DNA from: Tuwongella immobilis
GTDB taxonomy: Bacteria; Planctomycetota; Planctomycetia; Gemmatales; Gemmataceae
NCBI RefSeq assembly: GCF_901538355.1
Contig: NZ_LR593887.1
Coordinates: forward strand, 310,001-374,000
Direction: 5' to 3'
Length of the DNA: 64,000 nucleotides
In this document: positions 40,996 through 50,312 of the stretch, piece by piece
Position numbering within the stretch: position 1 is the first letter of the stretch
Layout: the number at the start of each line of letters is the position of its first letter
The notes under the pieces: generated by a model
Told to the model about the DNA's origin: nothing
The model's input: only the letters and a program-made list of their open reading frames with translations
Databases searched by the model: none
Made by a program: the position numbers and the translations under genes

Positions 40996-42297
40996 TTAAT
41001 CGGCGACAGAATACCAGACGCACGGAGCATGCACGCCAGGCAGTTGGTTGATGGTATCCAGTGCGCGGCGGAAGCCACCGGTGGGAGCCGCGTGCGTCAT
41101 AATCACCAACGGCACCGATTGGGCACCGGTCGTATCGCGGGGTTCGTGTTGGATCACGGAAGCGATGCTGATCTGGTGCGAGGCCAACACGCGGGCGACT
41201 TCGGCGAGCATGCCGGGCCGGTCATCCACTTGCAAGCGCAAGTAGAAACGGGAGGTGACGGTGTCGTTGGATCGCAGCGAAAAGCCTTGGGCGCTGGCTT
41301 CCCACAATCGCAATTGTTGGAAGGTGCGTTGGGCGCGGCCAACGGCCAAATCGATGAGATCGGCAACCACACTGCTTGCGGTCGGCATCATCCCCGCGCC
41401 CGGCCCCATGTACAGCGTTTCGCCCACGACATCGCCCATGACTTGGATGGCGTTGTAGGCACCGCGAACTTGGGCGAGCATGCTGTTGCGACGCAGCAGC
41501 ACCGGGGCGACGTGCATGGCCACTTGCCCCTGATTCAGCCAAGCCTCGGCCAGCAGTTTGATGACGTATCCCAATTCTTGGGCGAACTTGAGATCGGTTG
41601 CGTCGATGCGGTCGATGCCGATGCGTTCGATGGATGCCATGGGGACATCGATGCCGAATCCCAAGCGGGCGAGTACGCCCAATTTGTGGGCGGCGTCGCT
41701 GCCATCGACATCGAGTGTGGGGTCCGCCTCGGCGTAACCCAACCGCTGAGCTTCGGCCAGGGCGTCGGCGTAGCTTTGCCCCTTGTCGGCCATGGCGGTG
41801 AGGATGAAATTCGAGGTGCCGTTGAGAATGCCTTGAATCGACGTCACCTGATTGGCGGCGAGACTTTGGCCAATGGCGGCGATGATGGGCACGCCCCCGG
41901 CGACACTCGCTTCGAAGGCGACGGTGCGTTCGTTTTGCCGGGCCGCTTCAAAAACCTCGGTGCCATGCTCGGCGAGCAGTGCTTTGTTGGCGGTGACGAC
42001 GTGCTTGCCCGCGTGGAGCGATTCCAGCACAAATTGGCGGGCTTTTTGCGTGCCACCCACCAGTTCGACCACCACATGGACATTGGGATCGCTGAGGACG
42101 GTCGAAAAATCGGTGGTGATGAGAGTTGTCGGAATCGCCGGGTCACGCGGTCGCACGGGATCGCGCACGACGATGCGGCGCAGCTCCAACGGCCGCCCCG
42201 CTCGGGAGAGCATCCGTTCGCCGCGTTCCAGCAGAATTTTCGCAACCCCGGTGCCAACCGTTCCGCAACCAATCAGGGCAATTCCCAACGCATCCAT
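40996..42297 (-). CDS. hom: Homoserine dehydrogenase
   Basis: 433 residues. The Rossmann motif is LIGCGTVGTGVAKILL, followed by VELVGGTQKARQFV, TANKALLAEHG and the catalytic segment ILNGTSNFILTAM (about residue 180) with the ADPTLDVDGSDAAHKL region. The C-terminal ~90 residues form an ACT domain (RFYLRLQVDDRPGMLAEVAR). It reduces aspartate semialdehyde to homoserine for threonine and methionine synthesis, and the ACT domain suggests feedback by threonine. The length is typical. Confidence 0.95.
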   Translation of the reverse strand: MDALGIALIGCGTVGTGVAKILLERGERMLSRAGRPLELRRIVVRDPVRPRDPAIPTTLITTDFSTVLSDPNVHVVVELVGGTQKARQFVLESLHAGKHVVTANKALLAEHGTEVFEAARQNERTVAFEASVAGGVPIIAAIGQSLAANQVTSIQGILNGTSNFILTAMADKGQSYADALAEAQRLGYAEADPTLDVDGSDAAHKLGVLARLGFGIDVPMASIERIGIDRIDATDLKFAQELGYVIKLLAEAWLNQGQVAMHVAPVLLRRNSMLAQVRGAYNAIQVMGDVVGETLYMGPGAGMMPTASSVVADLIDLAVGRAQRTFQQLRLWEASAQGFSLRSNDTVTSRFYLRLQVDDRPGMLAEVARVLASHQISIASVIQHEPRDTTGAQSVPLVIMTHAAPTGGFRRALDTINQLPGVHAPCVWYSVAD

Positions 42298-42388: not shown

Positions 42389-43441
42389 CTAATCGCGGAA
42401 GCATCGCAGCAAAACCGGATCGGTATGGAGCAAGCGTTCGACTTCGGGAAGTTGGTCCCGAATCGAGAGAATCGTGAAGAACGGCTGTTTGATGGTGGGG
42501 GCGATGCTCACCGCATGCAGCCATTCCGCACGAATGAACGGATCGTCGGCAATGGCGTCCCAGAAGCCGGTTTTCGCAAACACTTGGGCGATTCGGTCGC
42601 TTTGATTTTGCTGCAACAGGCTCATCAAATAGGTGGCGACGCCGACTTGCAGTCCGTGCAATCGGGGTCGGGAACTGTGCAAATCGAGTGCGTGCGAGAT
42701 GAGATGCTCGCTGCCGCTGGCGGGGCGTGAGGAGCCGCAGATTTCCATGGCGATGCCGTTGAACATCAACGCGGTGCCGAGTAATTCCAACCCCTCGGCA
42801 TCGAGCGATTCGCGGGCCAAAAATGCGGAGACGGTATTGTCGGAGAGCAAGGCGGCAAAGTCGTTGACCAGTTCGCCGGTATGCTCGAATGCGAGTTTCC
42901 AGTCGAAGACGGCCGTGAGTTTGGCCATCAGATCGCCCACCCCGGAGAGCGTCAGCACGGTGGGGGCGTTGCGGCAAACTTCGGTATCCAGCACCACGCC
43001 ATACGGAATGGCGGCGGCCAGTGATTTGCGGCGACCTTGCAAGGTCAGGCTGGATTGCGGGCTGCAAAAGCCATCGTTGGATAGCGATGTTGGCACGGCG
43101 TAATACGGCAATCGTCCCAAGAATGCGGCATATTTGGCGACATCGAGCGCCTTGCCGCCGCCGAGTCCGACAATCGCTTGCACTTGGCGATCGATTTCGC
43201 CGAATCGCTGGGTGGCGTGCTCGAAACTGGCATCAATGACTTCGTTTTCTTGCACCAATTCGATGCCGTGATCCGCGAAACTCTGCTTCGCCCGCTCCCG
43301 CAATTCCGGCACCAAGCCATGGCTGAACAGCATGGCGATGCGACGATGCCCAGCACGGCTCAGGTACAGGCCGAGTCGATCCAGCGCGCCGGGCTTGAGT
43401 CGAACCAGCGTTGGAATCGCAATCTGCGTGGCGCGGTTCAT
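42389..43441 (-). CDS. Glycerol-1-phosphate dehydrogenase-like enzyme (EgsA/AraM type)
   Basis: 350 residues, the expected length. The NAD(P)-binding part has VGLGGGKALDVAKYAA and AVPTSLSNDGFCSPQSSL, both typical of G1P dehydrogenases. The metal ligands appear as Asp in SGVGDLMAKLTA, His in SEHLISHALD and His in LHGLQVGVAT. Such enzymes make sn-glycerol-1-phosphate from dihydroxyacetone phosphate, the stereoisomer of archaeal lipids, and a bacterial form (AraM) exists. Its start overlaps the HAD phosphatase stop by four bases (ATGA). Confidence 0.75.
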   Translation of the reverse strand: MNRATQIAIPTLVRLKPGALDRLGLYLSRAGHRRIAMLFSHGLVPELRERAKQSFADHGIELVQENEVIDASFEHATQRFGEIDRQVQAIVGLGGGKALDVAKYAAFLGRLPYYAVPTSLSNDGFCSPQSSLTLQGRRKSLAAAIPYGVVLDTEVCRNAPTVLTLSGVGDLMAKLTAVFDWKLAFEHTGELVNDFAALLSDNTVSAFLARESLDAEGLELLGTALMFNGIAMEICGSSRPASGSEHLISHALDLHSSRPRLHGLQVGVATYLMSLLQQNQSDRIAQVFAKTGFWDAIADDPFIRAEWLHAVSIAPTIKQPFFTILSIRDQLPEVERLLHTDPVLLRCFRD

Positions 43442-44097
43442 GATGCGGAATCCTCCGTGAGGGCGGCGGCGACTTCGGACCAGACAGCGAACGGCCGATA
43501 CGCCAGCCCCGCTTCTTGCAGTGCAATCGCCAGATCGCCCCGCGCAAACCGACGATCATCGGGCACCTGACGGGCCGCTTCAAAATCCGGGTAGCCATCC
43601 CCCGCAAAGGCCACGCGATCGCTGGTTTGCAGGGCGTGGCGAACAATCCCGGCCTTGTCCACCCCCAATGTCGGAGACAGAAACGGCGAGCCAACCGGCA
43701 ACTGCATCACCAATCCCTGACCGGGGATGAATTCACCGGGATTGGCGTAAATTTCCAGGCGATCCCGCACATCGGCCAACAGTCGGCGAATGTACCAATC
43801 GCAGCCCGCTGATGCGACAATCACGCGCCAGCCGTGGGCGGACAATCGGTCGAGCGATGCGGACAATTGTGGATCGACCTGCATGCGGCTGACCACTTCC
43901 AGGACGGTCGCTTCATCGACGCGGATTTCCGAGAAATACCCCTGAAGTGCTTCAAAGTGTGTGATTTTGCCGCTGCGGTAATCGGCCCAGAAATTCGGAG
44001 AGTCGGCCGGAATCAGCTCCGCCAACGCCAATTGGTAGAAATCGTGTTGCGTCAGCGTGCCATCGAAATCGGTCACCAATACCGCGGACGGTGTCAT
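43438..44097 (-). CDS. HAD-family phosphatase
   Basis: 219 residues from ATG 44,097. Motif I is VTDFDGTLTQHD (two Asp), motif II has VIVASAG near residue 95, and motif III is VAFAGDGYPDFEAA. The size and layout fit the MtnX/SerB-like branch of HAD phosphatases. Substrate unknown. Its stop overlaps the start of the G1P-dehydrogenase-like gene, so the enzymes are coupled and may act on the same phosphorylated three-carbon or sugar compound. Confidence 0.8.
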   Translation of the reverse strand: MTPSAVLVTDFDGTLTQHDFYQLALAELIPADSPNFWADYRSGKITHFEALQGYFSEIRVDEATVLEVVSRMQVDPQLSASLDRLSAHGWRVIVASAGCDWYIRRLLADVRDRLEIYANPGEFIPGQGLVMQLPVGSPFLSPTLGVDKAGIVRHALQTSDRVAFAGDGYPDFEAARQVPDDRRFARGDLAIALQEAGLAYRPFAVWSEVAAALTEDSAS

Positions 44098-44132: not shown

Positions 44133-44567
44133 TCACTGCGGAGGATTGTACGATTCTCCCGGCGGGTGGCATCCATCTTCGGAATTCGCCGGCGCAGTCG
44201 CGGATTCCGGGCAGTCGGAGGCGGCGGCCGTCGAATCGCTCGCAGTCGGAAGTTCTTTAGTAGTCGAACCTTGCGTTTCGGCTGGCACTTGCGGCAACGG
44301 CAGGGCACCCGGCGGCGGACAACCACCCCCTTGCGCAATGTACATCGCTCGGCGCTGGGCATATTCTTCCGCATTCAGGGCTTCCAATTCGTGGTCCGCC
44401 CGTTGGAACAGATGCCGCAGATACGGAATGCACCACCCGCAACCGGTGCCCGCGCCCCCGCATTGCGAAAGCTGGCTGACCACGCGTGGCTGATTGATGC
44501 GAATGTAATTCGCAATTTTTCGCCGGGAGATGCGAAAACAGTAACAGACGGGGTCATCCAATTGCAT
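44133..44567 (-). CDS. BFD-like [2Fe-2S] ferredoxin with Pro/Ala-rich tail
   Basis: 144 residues from ATG 44,567. The first ~50 residues carry CYCFRISRRKIANYI and later CGGAGTGCGWCIPYL, the CxC plus CxxxxxxCxxC arrangement of bacterioferritin-associated ferredoxin-like [2Fe-2S] domains. The rest is a low-complexity Ser/Pro/Ala tail. It may deliver electrons to iron storage or serve as a [2Fe-2S] adapter. It is divergent from the RCK channel gene, 60 bases away. Confidence 0.75.
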   Translation of the reverse strand: MQLDDPVCYCFRISRRKIANYIRINQPRVVSQLSQCGGAGTGCGWCIPYLRHLFQRADHELEALNAEEYAQRRAMYIAQGGGCPPPGALPLPQVPAETQGSTTKELPTASDSTAAASDCPESATAPANSEDGCHPPGESYNPPQ

Positions 44568-44626
44568 ATGCTGATCTCGGGATTTCGCGCGGCGGCATCT
44601 CGCCACGTGCGGGCCACACCGGAAGG

Positions 44627-46618
44627 ATGCTCACCGTGAATGCACCCATTATTTTATGCGGTTTGGGACTGGTCGGAAGGCGAGTCTACGAGCATTTGCT
44701 GAGTTTGGATCGGCCGCTGGTCATTATCGATTCGCGCATCAACCCGCAAGATCCGCTCTATCATCGCCCGCACGTCCGGGTTGTGGTCGGCGATTGCCGC
44801 GATCCGGTCATTCTGGAACAGGCCGGGGTGCCACACGCGCGCGGAGTACTGATCCTCACCTCCGATGATCTCGTGAATATCGCCACCGGGCTGATGGTGC
44901 GGCGACTGAATCCCGATGTCCGCATTGTGCTGCGGATGTTTAATCAAAATTTGATCAATCGCCTGGGCCGTTCGGTGCGAAATATCGTCGCGCTGTCGGT
45001 CTCTGCGCTGGCTGGGCCTCGCTTGGCGATGCGGGCGTTGGATCGAGACGTGGTGACGGGGTTCGACAATCTGGAATTCGGCCCGCAGCAGATTGTCGAA
45101 ATGGCCATCACGCCGGAATCGCCGTTGGCCAACCGCCGCATTGGCGACATTGTCCACCGCGAACGCCTCGTGACGGTCGGCTACCAACCTGGCGAAGGCG
45201 AATCGCGCATTCTGCTGGAAATCAACCCCGATCAGGTGCTGATGCCCGGCGACCGCATTTGGCTGGCCGGCACCGCGAAACGGCTCGACCGACTGCGGCT
45301 CGAATCGGGGCAACTCTCCGATCGCACCGTCAGCCTGCCGGGGAAACTCCGACACGCTTGGCGAATGGCCCGTCGCGCAGTCGATGAGATTGATTGGACT
45401 GTGAAGCTTGGCACCGGATTGCTCCTGGGCACTGTCTGCTTCTGCACCTTGGTCTATCATTGGGTGTTCCATCGGCCGCTGGCGGATTCGCTCTATCGCA
45501 CCATCAGCGTGATTGCGACCGGTGCCGACATGCGCGGCTACGATTTCGCCAACGAGGAATTCGAAGGCGGGGCCAAAGTCTTCATCAGCATCATGCGGCT
45601 GAGTGGTGTGGCACTGCTGGCCGCGTTTACGGCGATCATCACCAATTTTCTCGTCCGAGCGCGATTGGGCGGCGTGCTCGAAGTCCGCCGCATCCCCGAT
45701 TGGGGCCATGTCGTAGTCTGCGGATTGGGCAATATCGGATTCCGCGTGGTGGAAGAACTTCTGCGTCGCGGTGAGCGAGTCGTGGTGATCGAGCCGTTGC
45801 CGAATAACCCCTTCGTGCCAACCGTGCGCCGCGAAGGCGTGGCGGTGATTCAAGGCGAAGCGACGATTAGCGAAGTGCTTCGCCAAGCCAACATCGCCAC
45901 CGCTCGCGCCGTCATTACCTGCACTCCCAACGAACTCATCAACCTGGAAATTGCCTTGTTGGTGGCGGAAATTCAACCGAACCAGCGTGTGGTGCTGCGG
46001 ATGGCCGATCCGCTCTTGGCCGAGACGGTGCGGGAGTCCGGCTTGGTCCCGCTGGCCGTCTCCGTGCCGACACTCGCCGCCCCGCTCATCGTCGGTGCCA
46101 TGTTCGATGAACACGTGCAATCCGTGTTTCGCATCCACGGCCGCGAATTGGTGCTGGTCGATCTAACCGTTCAACCCAACGATCCCTGCCTGGATCGGCA
46201 ATCCCTTCGCGCGGTCGCCATCGACTACGACCTAATCCCACTCGGCCTGGTGCCGATTGTGCAATCGACAACGCCGTTGCATGCGAGCGTCATCGATAGC
46301 CGCAATTATCGCCTGAAAGCCGGCGACCGCATGACCGTGCTGACCACCCCCGCATCCCTCGCCCGCCTGGTGCAACGCGAACCCGCCCCCGCCGTTTGGC
46401 GCGTCGAAATCACCGGATTCCCTCTCCCCCAGCGAGAAACCCTGGCCTTGTATCTGCGATCGGTGCAAAATCTCACGCAAGCCGACGCCGATGCGAAAAC
46501 CCAACAACTCCCCCTGACCCTCGCCCACTCCCTGACCCGAGGCCAAGCCGAAGACTGGCACGCCCTCCTCCAACGCGAACGCATCGCCGCCACCATCACC
46601 CCCCACGAATCGGAGTGA
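44627..46618 (+). CDS. RCK-pore-RCK ion channel-like protein
   Basis: 663 residues. An N-terminal RCK/TrkA-N domain (IILCGLGLVGRRVYEHLLSL) with a TrkA-C-like part, then two membrane segments around residues 265-285 and 325-345 with a pore-loop sequence YRTISVIATGADMRGYDF, then a second RCK domain (HVVVCGLGNIGFRVVEELLRR) and TrkA-C. Two-segment channels with an RCK on each side occur among bacterial ion channels, but the usual TVGYGD filter is TGADMRG here, so ion selectivity is uncertain. The start may be ATG 44,627 or GTG 44,636. Confidence 0.75.
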   Translation: MLTVNAPIILCGLGLVGRRVYEHLLSLDRPLVIIDSRINPQDPLYHRPHVRVVVGDCRDPVILEQAGVPHARGVLILTSDDLVNIATGLMVRRLNPDVRIVLRMFNQNLINRLGRSVRNIVALSVSALAGPRLAMRALDRDVVTGFDNLEFGPQQIVEMAITPESPLANRRIGDIVHRERLVTVGYQPGEGESRILLEINPDQVLMPGDRIWLAGTAKRLDRLRLESGQLSDRTVSLPGKLRHAWRMARRAVDEIDWTVKLGTGLLLGTVCFCTLVYHWVFHRPLADSLYRTISVIATGADMRGYDFANEEFEGGAKVFISIMRLSGVALLAAFTAIITNFLVRARLGGVLEVRRIPDWGHVVVCGLGNIGFRVVEELLRRGERVVVIEPLPNNPFVPTVRREGVAVIQGEATISEVLRQANIATARAVITCTPNELINLEIALLVAEIQPNQRVVLRMADPLLAETVRESGLVPLAVSVPTLAAPLIVGAMFDEHVQSVFRIHGRELVLVDLTVQPNDPCLDRQSLRAVAIDYDLIPLGLVPIVQSTTPLHASVIDSRNYRLKAGDRMTVLTTPASLARLVQREPAPAVWRVEITGFPLPQRETLALYLRSVQNLTQADADAKTQQLPLTLAHSLTRGQAEDWHALLQRERIAATITPHESE

Positions 46619-47413: not shown

Positions 47414-48268
47414 TTAGTCAATTCGGCGGAGGTCGATGATGGCGGGGTTGGGGGTGGCGGGTGGCGGGTGGAGGAGCCATTCGGTGAGGCGTTGGAGTTT
47501 GCGTTCGGGGCTGGCTTCGCCGGGGGATTCGGATTCGGGTGGGCTGCCCCAGAGGACGGGTGGGCGATCGTGGGCGAGCAGGAGTCGCCAGCCGTCGCGG
47601 GTGCGTTCGAGGAATTGCACTTCGAAGCGACGTTGGTAGGGCATGAGCCGGTCGGCAATTCGGACGGCGGCTTGGACGTTTTCATCTTGCCAGGGGTTGC
47701 CGGGCGGCGCGGGGGGATTGAGTCCTTCGTTGCGCATGCGGATGATGCGTTCGGTGGGCGCGGTTTTGGGCAGCAGCACACCGAGTCGATCGATGGCGAC
47801 GAGTTCGCCGGTGGCGTTTTCGACGGCGAGTACCGGCGTGCGGAATTGGAGTTCCACACGGGCCGGGCGGGGCCACAGGTGGACGTGTTCCACTTTGTGG
47901 ACCCAGGGATGCCGTTCGAATCCGACGGTGAGAACGGGTGCGAGTTCGTCGTCGGTGCCGGTGAGTTCGTCGGGCCAGCCGGTGAGGAATTGCACTTGTT
48001 GCAGGAAGTCCTCGCGGGTTAATCCGGGCGGCAAGTTGCATTCAATCGATTGCGGGGCGAGGCGATATTTTCCGGAGCGTTGGAGATAATCGCGCGCAAA
48101 GTCCCCCAACCAGAGAAGACCGGCGATTCCGCCGATCATTCCGATGAGGGTAAGCGTAATCCGGATCCACCCCCGATTGGGTGGGGGCGGAGGCGGTGGC
48201 GGTGGTGGTGGCGGTGGTGGCTCGGGGGGGAGTTCCTCGGGCACCGATTTTTTCTTGCGTCGGCTCAC
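47414..48268 (-). CDS. FtsQ-like divisome protein with 14-proline tract
   Basis: 284 residues. A cytoplasmic N-terminus contains a run of 14 prolines (residues ~17-30), then one membrane segment (ITLTLIGMIGGIAGLLWLG) and an extracytoplasmic part of ~220 residues with a POTRA/FtsQ-like layout (VGFERHPWVHKVEHVHLWP, RVELQFRTPVLAVENATGEL, VAIDRLGVLLP). The gene overlaps murB by four bases, as ftsQ often follows murB in cell-wall clusters. Planctomycetes are reported to lack FtsZ, so the retained function is unclear. FtsQ assignment is by layout and context. Confidence 0.65.
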   Translation of the reverse strand: MSRRKKKSVPEELPPEPPPPPPPPPPPPPPNRGWIRITLTLIGMIGGIAGLLWLGDFARDYLQRSGKYRLAPQSIECNLPPGLTREDFLQQVQFLTGWPDELTGTDDELAPVLTVGFERHPWVHKVEHVHLWPRPARVELQFRTPVLAVENATGELVAIDRLGVLLPKTAPTERIIRMRNEGLNPPAPPGNPWQDENVQAAVRIADRLMPYQRRFEVQFLERTRDGWRLLLAHDRPPVLWGSPPESESPGEASPERKLQRLTEWLLHPPPATPNPAIIDLRRID

Positions 48269-49143
48269 CAGATTCGTACTTCCCGTTCGAGAGTGACGCC
48301 GCTTTTCTCGCGGACTTTGCTTTGCACCAGATCGATCAGTCGGGTGAGATCGCGTGCCGAGGTGTTCGGCTGAGCGACGATGTAGTTGGCGTTGCGGTCG
48401 CTGACCACCGCGCCGCCAACGCGCATGCCAACCAGACCGGCTTGTTCAATGAGCGTGGCGGCCGAATGTCCGCGTGGGTTTTTGAATGTGCGGATGGCCG
48501 ATTCAAAGCTGAGCGGTTGGCCGGCTTGTCGGGTGATCCACGCCTTCCGCATGCGCTTGACGACTTGTTCGGCAGAATCGCTTTCCAATTCAAACTCGAT
48601 CGACAGAATGACGGGGTCATCCAAGTCGCTGGTGTGTTCGCTGAAGTGCATTTCGTCGCGTTCGCGGACTTGCACTTGGCCGTTGCGGTCGAGGACTTCA
48701 ACGCGGCGAACGTAATTCCCGATCGCTCCGGTTCGGTCGCCGGCATTGCATTGCAGGGCACCGCCGAGGGTGCCATGGATGCCGACGAGTGTCTCGAAAC
48801 CGGCGAGATTGTGGCGAGCGGCAGCGCTGATTGCGGTGGACAGTTGGGCACCGCCGCCGACGGTCATTCGGCGTTGTTCAACGTGGATCGCGCAGAATGC
48901 AGGCTCGTTGAGCCGCACGACGACTCCCCGCACGCCTTCATCGGCAATGACCAGATTGCAGCCATTGCCCAGGACGCGGAATGGGAGCTTCTGCGTGAAG
49001 ACGGATCGGACCACTGCCGCAAGTTCTTCCCGCGTGCGGGGTTGCACGAGAAAATCCGCTGGTCCCCCGATGCGCAAATAGGTGTAGGGAGCCAACGATT
49101 CGTTGACGCGGGTGATCTCTGGGAACTCATCCTGAAAGGCCAT
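48265..49143 (-). CDS. murB: UDP-N-acetylenolpyruvoylglucosamine reductase
   Basis: 292 residues from ATG 49,143. FAD-binding motif TYLRIGGPADFLVQPRTREE, then LGNGCNLVIADEGVRG, GIHGTLGGALQCNAGD and the C-terminal AATLIEQAGLVGMRVGGAVV and NANYIVA blocks. It reduces the enolpyruvyl group to give UDP-MurNAc, a step of peptidoglycan synthesis, in the cytoplasm. The final Glu is expected in REVRIW region. It overlaps the ftsQ-like gene (ATGA). Its presence supports a peptidoglycan wall in this organism. Confidence 0.93.
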   Translation of the reverse strand: MAFQDEFPEITRVNESLAPYTYLRIGGPADFLVQPRTREELAAVVRSVFTQKLPFRVLGNGCNLVIADEGVRGVVVRLNEPAFCAIHVEQRRMTVGGGAQLSTAISAAARHNLAGFETLVGIHGTLGGALQCNAGDRTGAIGNYVRRVEVLDRNGQVQVRERDEMHFSEHTSDLDDPVILSIEFELESDSAEQVVKRMRKAWITRQAGQPLSFESAIRTFKNPRGHSAATLIEQAGLVGMRVGGAVVSDRNANYIVAQPNTSARDLTRLIDLVQSKVREKSGVTLEREVRIW

Positions 49144-49179
49144 GGCCAAAACTCTCCGCGTGGACCCGGACTGCATGTC

Positions 49180-49188
49180 TGCTATTCT
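49180..49188 (+). promoter_or_regulatory. Possible extended -10 box for the ABC binding protein gene
   Basis: TGCTATTCT at 49,180-49,188 fits an extended -10 element, with TGGACC 16 bases upstream as a weak -35. It lies in the region between divergent genes. Confidence 0.3.
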
Positions 49189-49250
49189 AGGGAGAGTGTC
49201 CAGTCTCCACAACCAGCGTTTCGGAATCCACATCAAACGGAGCAATTGCA

Positions 49251-50312
49251 ATGGCAGCGAATCTGAATCGTCGCCACTGGATGCAGCGCAGTCTGGGCAT
49301 GGTCGCGGGGGCGGGGCTGCTGAACGTAGCCGGGTGCCAGCGGGATGATGTGGTAACGGTGTATTGCGCTCAGGATCGTGAGTTTGCAGCCGATTTATTC
49401 ACCGACTTTACCCGACTTAGCGGTGTGGAAGTCCGTGTGAAATATGACACTGAAGCCAATAAGTCAGTTGGGCTGATTCAGGAATTGATTCAGGAGGGTG
49501 AGCGGCCCCGCTGCGATGTGCATTGGAATAATGAGATTCTGGGCACCCTGCGGTTGCAATCGCAGGGATTGCTGGCCCGGTTGGAATCGCCGCGTGCGAT
49601 GGCGTTTCCCGAATGGACGCATCCGCCGGAGCAGACCTGGCAGGCATTTGCCGCACGGGCGCGGGTGTTGATTGTGCATTCCGGGCGAGTGGCCCAAGCG
49701 GATCGTCCGGCAAGTTTGTGGGATTTGCTCCATCCACGCTGGAAGGGGCAAGTGGCGATGGCGAAGCCGCAATTTGGCACCACGGCGACGCATGCCGCTT
49801 GTCTGTTCCAGAAGTTGGGGACGGAGCGGGCCAGCGAATTCTATCGCGGCTTGGCGGCAAACGGCGTGCAGCTGGTGGCCGGCAACAAACAAGTGGCGGA
49901 GCAGGTTGCGGCGGGGCGGTTCGCCATGGGCATGACCGATACCGATGATGCCTTGATCGAAATTCAAGCAGGCAAACCCGTGGAAATGGTGTTTCTGGAT
50001 CGCACCGGCGGTCCGGCGAATGCACCGGAACTGGGGACATTGTTCATTCCCAATACCTTAGCGGTGATCCGCAATGCGCCGCATTCGGAGGCCGCTCAGC
50101 GGTTGGTGGATTACTTGCTCCAAGCACGAGTCGAACAGCGTTTGGCGGAAGGCGGTGGATACCAAATTCCGTTGGCAACCGATGTGACCGCGACGTTGCC
50201 CGGCGGTTTGGAAACCCCGAAATCCGTGAAGCCGCTGGAAGTCAACTGGACCGAAGCCGCCGCCGGGTGGGATCGGGTGCAAGCCTTCCTGCGCGACCAA
50301 TTCGCCGGGTGA
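49251..50312 (+). CDS. ABC transporter substrate-binding lipoprotein, Fe(III)-type
   Basis: 353 residues. The N-terminus has RRHWMQRSLG, a Tat-like signal, and a lipobox ending NVAGC, so it is probably a Tat-exported lipoprotein. The mature part (VVTVYCAQDREFAADLFTDF, VRVKYDTEANKSVGLIQEL, CDVHWNNEILGTLRLQ, FGMTDTDDALIEIQ) fits the iron(III)-binding FbpA/AfuA-type family. ATG 49,251 has GGAG upstream. The final 60 bases are duplicated downstream of hicBA. A permease gene of the matching family is 8 kb away; no ATPase gene is in the window. Confidence 0.8.
   Translation: MAANLNRRHWMQRSLGMVAGAGLLNVAGCQRDDVVTVYCAQDREFAADLFTDFTRLSGVEVRVKYDTEANKSVGLIQELIQEGERPRCDVHWNNEILGTLRLQSQGLLARLESPRAMAFPEWTHPPEQTWQAFAARARVLIVHSGRVAQADRPASLWDLLHPRWKGQVAMAKPQFGTTATHAACLFQKLGTERASEFYRGLAANGVQLVAGNKQVAEQVAAGRFAMGMTDTDDALIEIQAGKPVEMVFLDRTGGPANAPELGTLFIPNTLAVIRNAPHSEAAQRLVDYLLQARVEQRLAEGGGYQIPLATDVTATLPGGLETPKSVKPLEVNWTEAAAGWDRVQAFLRDQFAG

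Follow-up and report, generated by a model that had tools for sequence, protein, structure and literature searches.

In yeast, glycerol is produced by the Gpd/Gpp enzymes through reduction of dihydroxyacetone phosphate (DHAP) and the action of a HAD-type phosphatase, while in Bacillus sn-glycerol-1-phosphate (G1P) is used by PcrB. G1P dehydrogenase (G1PDH) sets archaeal lipid stereochemistry, and discussions of the lipid divide and of LUCA draw on it and count its bacterial relatives (PMC6431249, PMC5059525). The product of the archaeal enzyme, EgsA, feeds geranylgeranylglyceryl phosphate synthase, GGGPS (PMC6431249). A 2026 paper states that G1PDH/AraM is the one known mechanism of G1P synthesis and that E. 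coli, and possibly other bacteria, must have others (PMC13400652). The araJKLMN cluster of Geobacillus contains araM together with the sugar phosphatase gene araL (PMC4194401), and a fused HAD-G3PDH protein of Dunaliella reportedly produces glycerol from DHAP (PMC10607294, PMC8912411).

The locus described here lies in a 64,000-nucleotide stretch of the genome of Tuwongella immobilis, called the window below. The genome is a single contig of 6.69 Mb with an estimated completeness of 96.35%. An earlier sequence-only reading had described a dehydrogenase gene coupled to a HAD phosphatase gene at 42389-44097, and both open reading frames (ORFs) were confirmed there, on the reverse strand (Table 1).

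Table 1. Features of the dehydrogenase-phosphatase locus, in window coordinates.
Feature	Position	Strand	Basis
Predicted G1PDH-like dehydrogenase gene, 350 aa, Fe-ADH superfamily, 3ce9 clade	42389-43441	-	ORF, profiles, tree, fold
Predicted MtnX-like HAD-IB phosphatase gene, 219 aa from ATG 44097	43438-44097	-	ORF, profiles, fold
ATGA stop/start overlap of the HAD and dehydrogenase genes	43438-43441	-	

The ATG of the dehydrogenase gene (43441-43439) and the TGA stop of the HAD gene (43440-43438) have the four nucleotides ATGA in common, which suggests that translation of the two genes may be coupled. The longest ORF of the HAD gene begins at 44172 (244 aa); most of the residues that this adds have low confidence in the AlphaFold model, and this start would overlap a [2Fe-2S] ORF at 44133-44606. 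The latter ORF, directly upstream of the HAD gene on the reverse strand, carries a BFD-like [2Fe-2S] domain (Fer2_BFD, 38.2 bits) and possibly shares a transcript with the pair; it was found in no related locus examined other than that of the window itself. Divergent from the pair is a forward-strand gene with two TrkA-N domains (44627-46618), whose product, by reading of the sequence, resembles an unusual potassium-channel-like protein with RCK domains on either side of its membrane part. Downstream of the pair, after 91 nt, the reverse strand carries a gene for a homoserine dehydrogenase with an ACT domain (40996-42297), and no such gene was conspicuous by eye among the neighbour clusters of related loci. 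Further away, MurB (UDP-N-acetylmuramate dehydrogenase; 48265-49251, reverse strand, 269 bits) is of interest for peptidoglycan, the relatives of this genome being planctomycetes. Promoter and terminator scans gave about as many matches as in shuffled sequence.

The dehydrogenase matches the Pfam model Fe-ADH_2 with 126.2 bits and the NCBIfam G1PDH model NF002022 with 205.9 bits over residues 3-328, without reaching the equivalog cut-off of 413, and a plasmid-encoded AraM-type protein is likewise under that cut-off (229.9 bits). The score against the glycerol dehydrogenase (GldA) model was 63.9 bits and did not reach the cut-off of 336, and the aroB model (TIGR01357) gave no match at E<=0.001; the AroB of this genome is located elsewhere. 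Compared with archaeal EgsA (4rgq, 5fb3), the dehydrogenase has the fold and the metal ligands in common, together with near-identical S-[NH]-D-G, DW-x-LA and SRPxSGSEHL segments, at 26-29% identity in structural alignments. The residues D170, H246 and H262, metal ligands by homology, are invariant in 40 of 40 alignment rows, and none of the 14 dehydrogenase positions tested varies across the 65 pairs, the window included. It was found that 22 positions are kept in at least 19 of the 20 family rows and are identical to both archaeal EgsA rows, and that none of the three GldA rows agrees with them, GldA showing 18 other letters and four gaps (R239, P240, S242, G243). Among these EgsA-like, non-GldA positions are G124, W181, S238, E245 and H250; AraM-type rows share only part of the 22, several being absent.

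The AlphaFold model of the dehydrogenase (mean pLDDT 94.3) was aligned with VIA-align to 3ce9 (Z 51.0), to the M. jannaschii G1PDH-NADPH-DHAP complex (Z 40.2) and to B. subtilis AraM (Z 39.6). The best GldA reached a Z of 33.1, compared with 39.3-40.2 for the G1PDHs other than 3ce9. The profile scores, the active-site segments and the predicted fold all mark the dehydrogenase as G1PDH-like, in keeping with the G1PDH motifs and metal ligands recognised earlier, and by homology it is probably NAD(P)-dependent. A haloarchaeal enzyme annotated as G1PDH turned out to be a glycolaldehyde reductase (PMC9700705), and a G1PDH annotation can therefore mislead.

To place the dehydrogenase, a first tree was built from 19 related family rows and the window (20 family rows), with AraM-like, GldA and AroB sequences included. 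The family branch was supported at 100/99 and the family with 3ce9 at 99/97, while AraM-like rows stood on their own side (95/90), GldA (100/100) sat on a very long branch and AroB was remote. Within the family, the window's dehydrogenase was nearest to those of Gemmataceae and other Planctomycetota. In a second tree of 25 rows, with AroB omitted and seven related family rows besides the window, the support was 99/99 for the family and 87/94 for the family with 3ce9. The sister of the family, 3ce9, is a C. acetobutylicum protein (NP_348253.1) with 36% identity over nearly the full length; its name, "glycerol dehydrogenase", is the depositors' label. A joint clade of the family, 3ce9 and EgsA was not rejected (p-AU 0.20). 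The earlier reading had named a position with sedoheptulose cyclases or glycerol dehydrogenases as the outcome that would count against it. The family is not placed with AroB-type enzymes, its profile scoring 354 bits against 3ce9 and at most 47 bits against DHQS, and it branches in a clade of its own; the distinction from GldA is less firm, as a joint clade of the family, 3ce9 and GldA was not rejected (p-AU 0.22), though GldA was separate in both trees. On these trees the family and 3ce9 are taken as a clade of their own, apart from AraM and AroB and, less firmly, from GldA, with a provisional deep placement.

The HAD protein scored 78.9 bits against the MtnX-like HAD-IB model, slightly under the cut-off of 81.55, and 47.7 bits against HAD-SF-IB (TIGR01488), over the cut-off of 45. 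All 65 pairs retain the catalytic residues D35, D37, S121 and K173, and 63 of them retain D192. One alignment of HAD sequences had its rows trimmed at their starts and gives no information on start sites. The protein is accordingly classed, at the level of prediction, as an MtnX-like HAD-IB phosphatase with intact catalytic residues. MtnX (2fea) is the best PDB match both of its structural model (pLDDT 91.6) and of its sequence, phosphoserine phosphatases and 5'-nucleotidases being among the next matches of the model; the MtnX equivalog model gave 37.9 bits and its cut-off of 303.2 was not reached. No match to MtnA was found in the window's genome, and the HAD is therefore unlikely to be the MtnX of methionine salvage.

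To see how far the arrangement recurs, genome contigs were scanned and 80 related dehydrogenase loci were retained. By record titles, these belong to Planctomycetota (25), Verrucomicrobiota (12), Thermodesulfobacteriota (11), Omnitrophota (11), Acidobacteriota (4), Kiritimatiellota, Myxococcota and Pseudomonadota (3 each) and five other phyla (1 each), with 3 unclassified. The planctomycete setting proposed earlier fits the nearest relatives of the dehydrogenase, which are from Gemmataceae and other Planctomycetota, but the gene is not confined to planctomycetes. Four loci were dropped because the contig begins too near the dehydrogenase, and in 64 of the 76 with upstream room the gene for the same HAD phosphatase lies upstream on the same strand. 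These 64 span ten named phyla plus 3 unclassified records, and the gap between the two genes is -13 to +13 nt in all but one, where it is 221 nt. The overlap seen in the window is not a chance event, because this tight arrangement recurs in 63 of the 76 relatives, and the close coupling to a phosphatase suspected earlier is borne out to that extent. Pairwise distances of the two proteins correlate with r 0.83 over 65 pairs, a value reached in none of 999 permutations and inflated because shared descent of both proteins contributes. No description of the pair was found in the literature searched, which includes few subscription papers, and absence from print is not claimed.

Among the 12 unpaired genomes, the HAD was found elsewhere in two (50-51% identity) and as a weak match (29%) in one; in the other nine no HAD was found at E<=1e-4. 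One of these nine is the genome of L041 (5225-7050), a Myxococcota MAG in which the place of the HAD-IB gene is taken by one for a HAD-IIA phosphatase, which likewise overlaps the dehydrogenase gene by 4 nt. Neither phosphatase adjoins the dehydrogenase in 11 of the 76 loci, two of Myxococcaceae included, and nine of the 76 have neither an orthologue-level HAD in the genome nor the L041 substitute. At the unpaired planctomycete loci L005 (652-1440), L089 and L096, the gene ahead of the dehydrogenase, in the same orientation, codes for a pteridine-reductase-like SDR, as judged by a domain scan in L005 only.

In a survey of 294 genomes of the phylum, the dehydrogenase was matched at E<=1e-20 in 18. 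Four of these, the window's own included, are members of the family (53-100% identity), and 14 are more distant (32-41%). The HAD was matched at E<=1e-6 in nine of the 294 genomes, strongly (E<1e-40) in four: the window's own, two genomes of the dehydrogenase family (one HAD with an internal TGA) and one without the dehydrogenase (L111). The fourth dehydrogenase-family genome of the survey, the one that holds L005 (G283), gave no HAD match. The L111 genome, from a planctomycete of the same class, has a HAD of 42% identity (1372-2157) and gave no dehydrogenase match at E<=1e-20.

B. subtilis-type AraM (9h4x) has its fold and metal ligands in common with the dehydrogenase and falls in another clade. 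Its cluster partner AraL, presumably a HAD-IIA enzyme, is a HAD of another class than the HAD-IB protein of the window. On a Shinella plasmid (L105, 2692-6378), an AraM-type gene is directly followed by a HAD-IIB phosphatase gene, glpD and a gene annotated as xylulokinase. Together with the araL and araM genes of Geobacillus, this indicates that G1PDH-type genes repeatedly have a phosphatase gene as neighbour, the HAD class of which varies. The planctomycete AraM-type loci L009-L019 showed no adjoining phosphatase by eye. On a Streptomyces plasmid (L101, 4426-8798), a G1PDH-like gene whose product is 35% identical lies between genes for a nucleotidyltransferase and a CDP-alcohol phosphatidyltransferase, an arrangement that suggests a CDP-activated glycerol route. 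On an N. vulgaris plasmid (L100, 9001-10050), the dehydrogenase gene adjoins genes for a SpoIIE phosphatase, a sigma-54 regulator and type III secretion. No HAD lies next to it, none was found among the tblastn matches for that record in the plasmid collection, and nothing on this dehydrogenase was found in the excerpts of D. vulgaris papers examined.

Neighbouring genes were compared by all-against-all clustering of flanking ORFs. Besides the HAD, each same-strand cluster occurs in at most 13 loci. The next commonest, in 13 loci and in varied places, has histidine-kinase/response-regulator domains, all generic in the 8 of 15 members scanned. A polyphosphate kinase 2 (PPK2) cluster, of which one member was scanned, was found in nine loci (8 Planctomycetota, 1 unclassified), not always adjacent, and the remaining same-strand clusters occur in at most six loci each. 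The large clusters found on the strand opposite the pair were interpreted as shadow ORFs and set aside. GlgX adjoins the dehydrogenase in L026, which weakly fits a link to carbohydrate, and it lies near the dehydrogenase in L024 by reading only.

These data bear on an alternative in which the pair acts on another keto-phosphate, such as a ketose-1-phosphate or a tetrulose or pentulose phosphate. In one version, the dehydrogenase would make a polyol phosphate from which the HAD frees the polyol; in the other, the HAD would clear a toxic sugar phosphate. MtnX, the nearest named relative of the HAD, acts on a keto-phosphate, the Rubrobacter and Shinella AraM-type genes are located with sugar-kinase genes, and the araL-araM genes of Geobacillus lie in a pentose locus for which an alternative pentose route was postulated (PMC4194401). 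However, the conserved segments around the metal ligands match those of EgsA, which has been solved with DHAP, and the recurring same-strand neighbours other than the HAD are of the histidine-kinase and PPK2 types and the small clusters listed above. Action on another keto-phosphate is therefore regarded as unlikely.

A true GGGPS/PcrB, the follow-on enzyme of EgsA, was found neither in the window's genome nor in 31 genomes chosen from the 80 loci, many of which are MAGs by title. This argues against an archaeal-type lipid, and the link to archaeal-type or prenyl-glycerol lipids raised in the sequence-only reading was not supported. Run on 14 control genomes, the same search gave matches in seven, including B. 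subtilis, and five of the seven exceeded the cut-off. The match in the window's genome (21.5 bits, cut-off 23.9) is a HisA/HisF-family protein. Of the two matches in the 31 genomes, one slightly exceeded the cut-off with 24.8 bits; the two proteins were identified as TrpA (248.8 bits) and HisA (262.7 bits).

A supply of G1P for lipids or cell-surface polymers, either a prenyl-glycerol lipid or a heterochiral phospholipid made via PlsY/PlsC, with the phosphatase trimming the pool, was weighed against these results. Both stereo-forms are reportedly accepted by the bacterial enzymes PlsY and PlsC (PMC13400652), and the window's genome encodes PlsY along with GlpK and GpsA (the last recognised by its C-terminal domain). 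The Streptomyces relative, placed with CDP-alcohol phosphatidyltransferase genes, points the same way. Against this stand the failure to find a true GGGPS in the genomes searched, a coupled phosphatase that would waste the product, and the lack of any same-strand neighbour besides the HAD in more than 13 loci, so that lipid supply is considered improbable.

Salvage of G1P from phosphatidylglycerol head groups was also considered. In this scheme, one enzyme would oxidise G1P to DHAP and the other would dephosphorylate it to glycerol for GlpK. Such head groups supply sn-glycerol-1-phosphate units in E. coli (PMC8027125). The presence of GlpK in the window's genome agrees with the scheme, but two coupled enzymes competing for one substrate would be odd, and the same scarcity of recurring neighbours applies. 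Furthermore, DHAP reduction is the favoured direction of the G1PDH-type reaction. The probability of salvage is rated as low.

The reading preferred here, by a slight balance of the evidence, is that the pair forms a self-contained two-enzyme module that would convert DHAP to sn-glycerol-1-phosphate and then to glycerol. The dehydrogenase, with its metal held by D170, H246 and H262, would reduce DHAP with NAD(P)H to sn-glycerol-1-phosphate, and the coupled HAD-IB phosphatase would hydrolyse this to glycerol and phosphate, a step that would make the route irreversible. Release of free glycerol had been offered earlier as a second option beside the lipid link, and it is now the likeliest reading. 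The substrate, direction and stereochemistry assigned to the dehydrogenase come from homology, and we infer the metal ligation and the purpose of the module. The module would drain DHAP and reducing power into glycerol and leave the sn-glycerol-3-phosphate pool for phospholipids untouched. The glycerol might serve as a compatible solute (osmolyte), or its formation as a redox or DHAP overflow, and it may be guessed that either would fit a conserved and otherwise context-poor pair. No match to a MIP channel was found in the window's genome, an absence that carries no weight.

A parallel is offered by Dunaliella. There, a single fused protein combines the two activities, in contrast to the overlapping genes found here, and the dehydrogenase part of the fusion is unrelated to that of the window and has G3P stereochemistry. 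The HAD fold of DsGPDH (6iuy) matches the window's HAD model weakly, at rank 48 (E 1.1e-5, TM 0.53/0.25), as one among many phosphoserine-phosphatase-like matches. On the preferred reading, the pair would correspond, as two genes, to the fused HAD-G3PDH of Dunaliella, but with an intermediate of opposite stereochemistry. More tentatively, and with somewhat less than an even chance, the family may be a third clade of bacterial dehydrogenases that truly form G1P, present in at least 10 phyla and equipped with a dedicated phosphatase, and may make glycerol via the "archaeal" enantiomer.

A widespread G1PDH-like enzyme that is linked to a phosphatase and occurs in genomes in which a search for GGGPS found none points to a different and testable role for bacterial G1P. 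The role proposed is a mirror-image route to glycerol that would spare the G3P pool. If this is true, bacterial G1PDH would often be part of a glycerol-producing system, osmotic or overflow, and the presence of a bacterial G1PDH alone would not be evidence for archaeal-type or heterochiral lipids.
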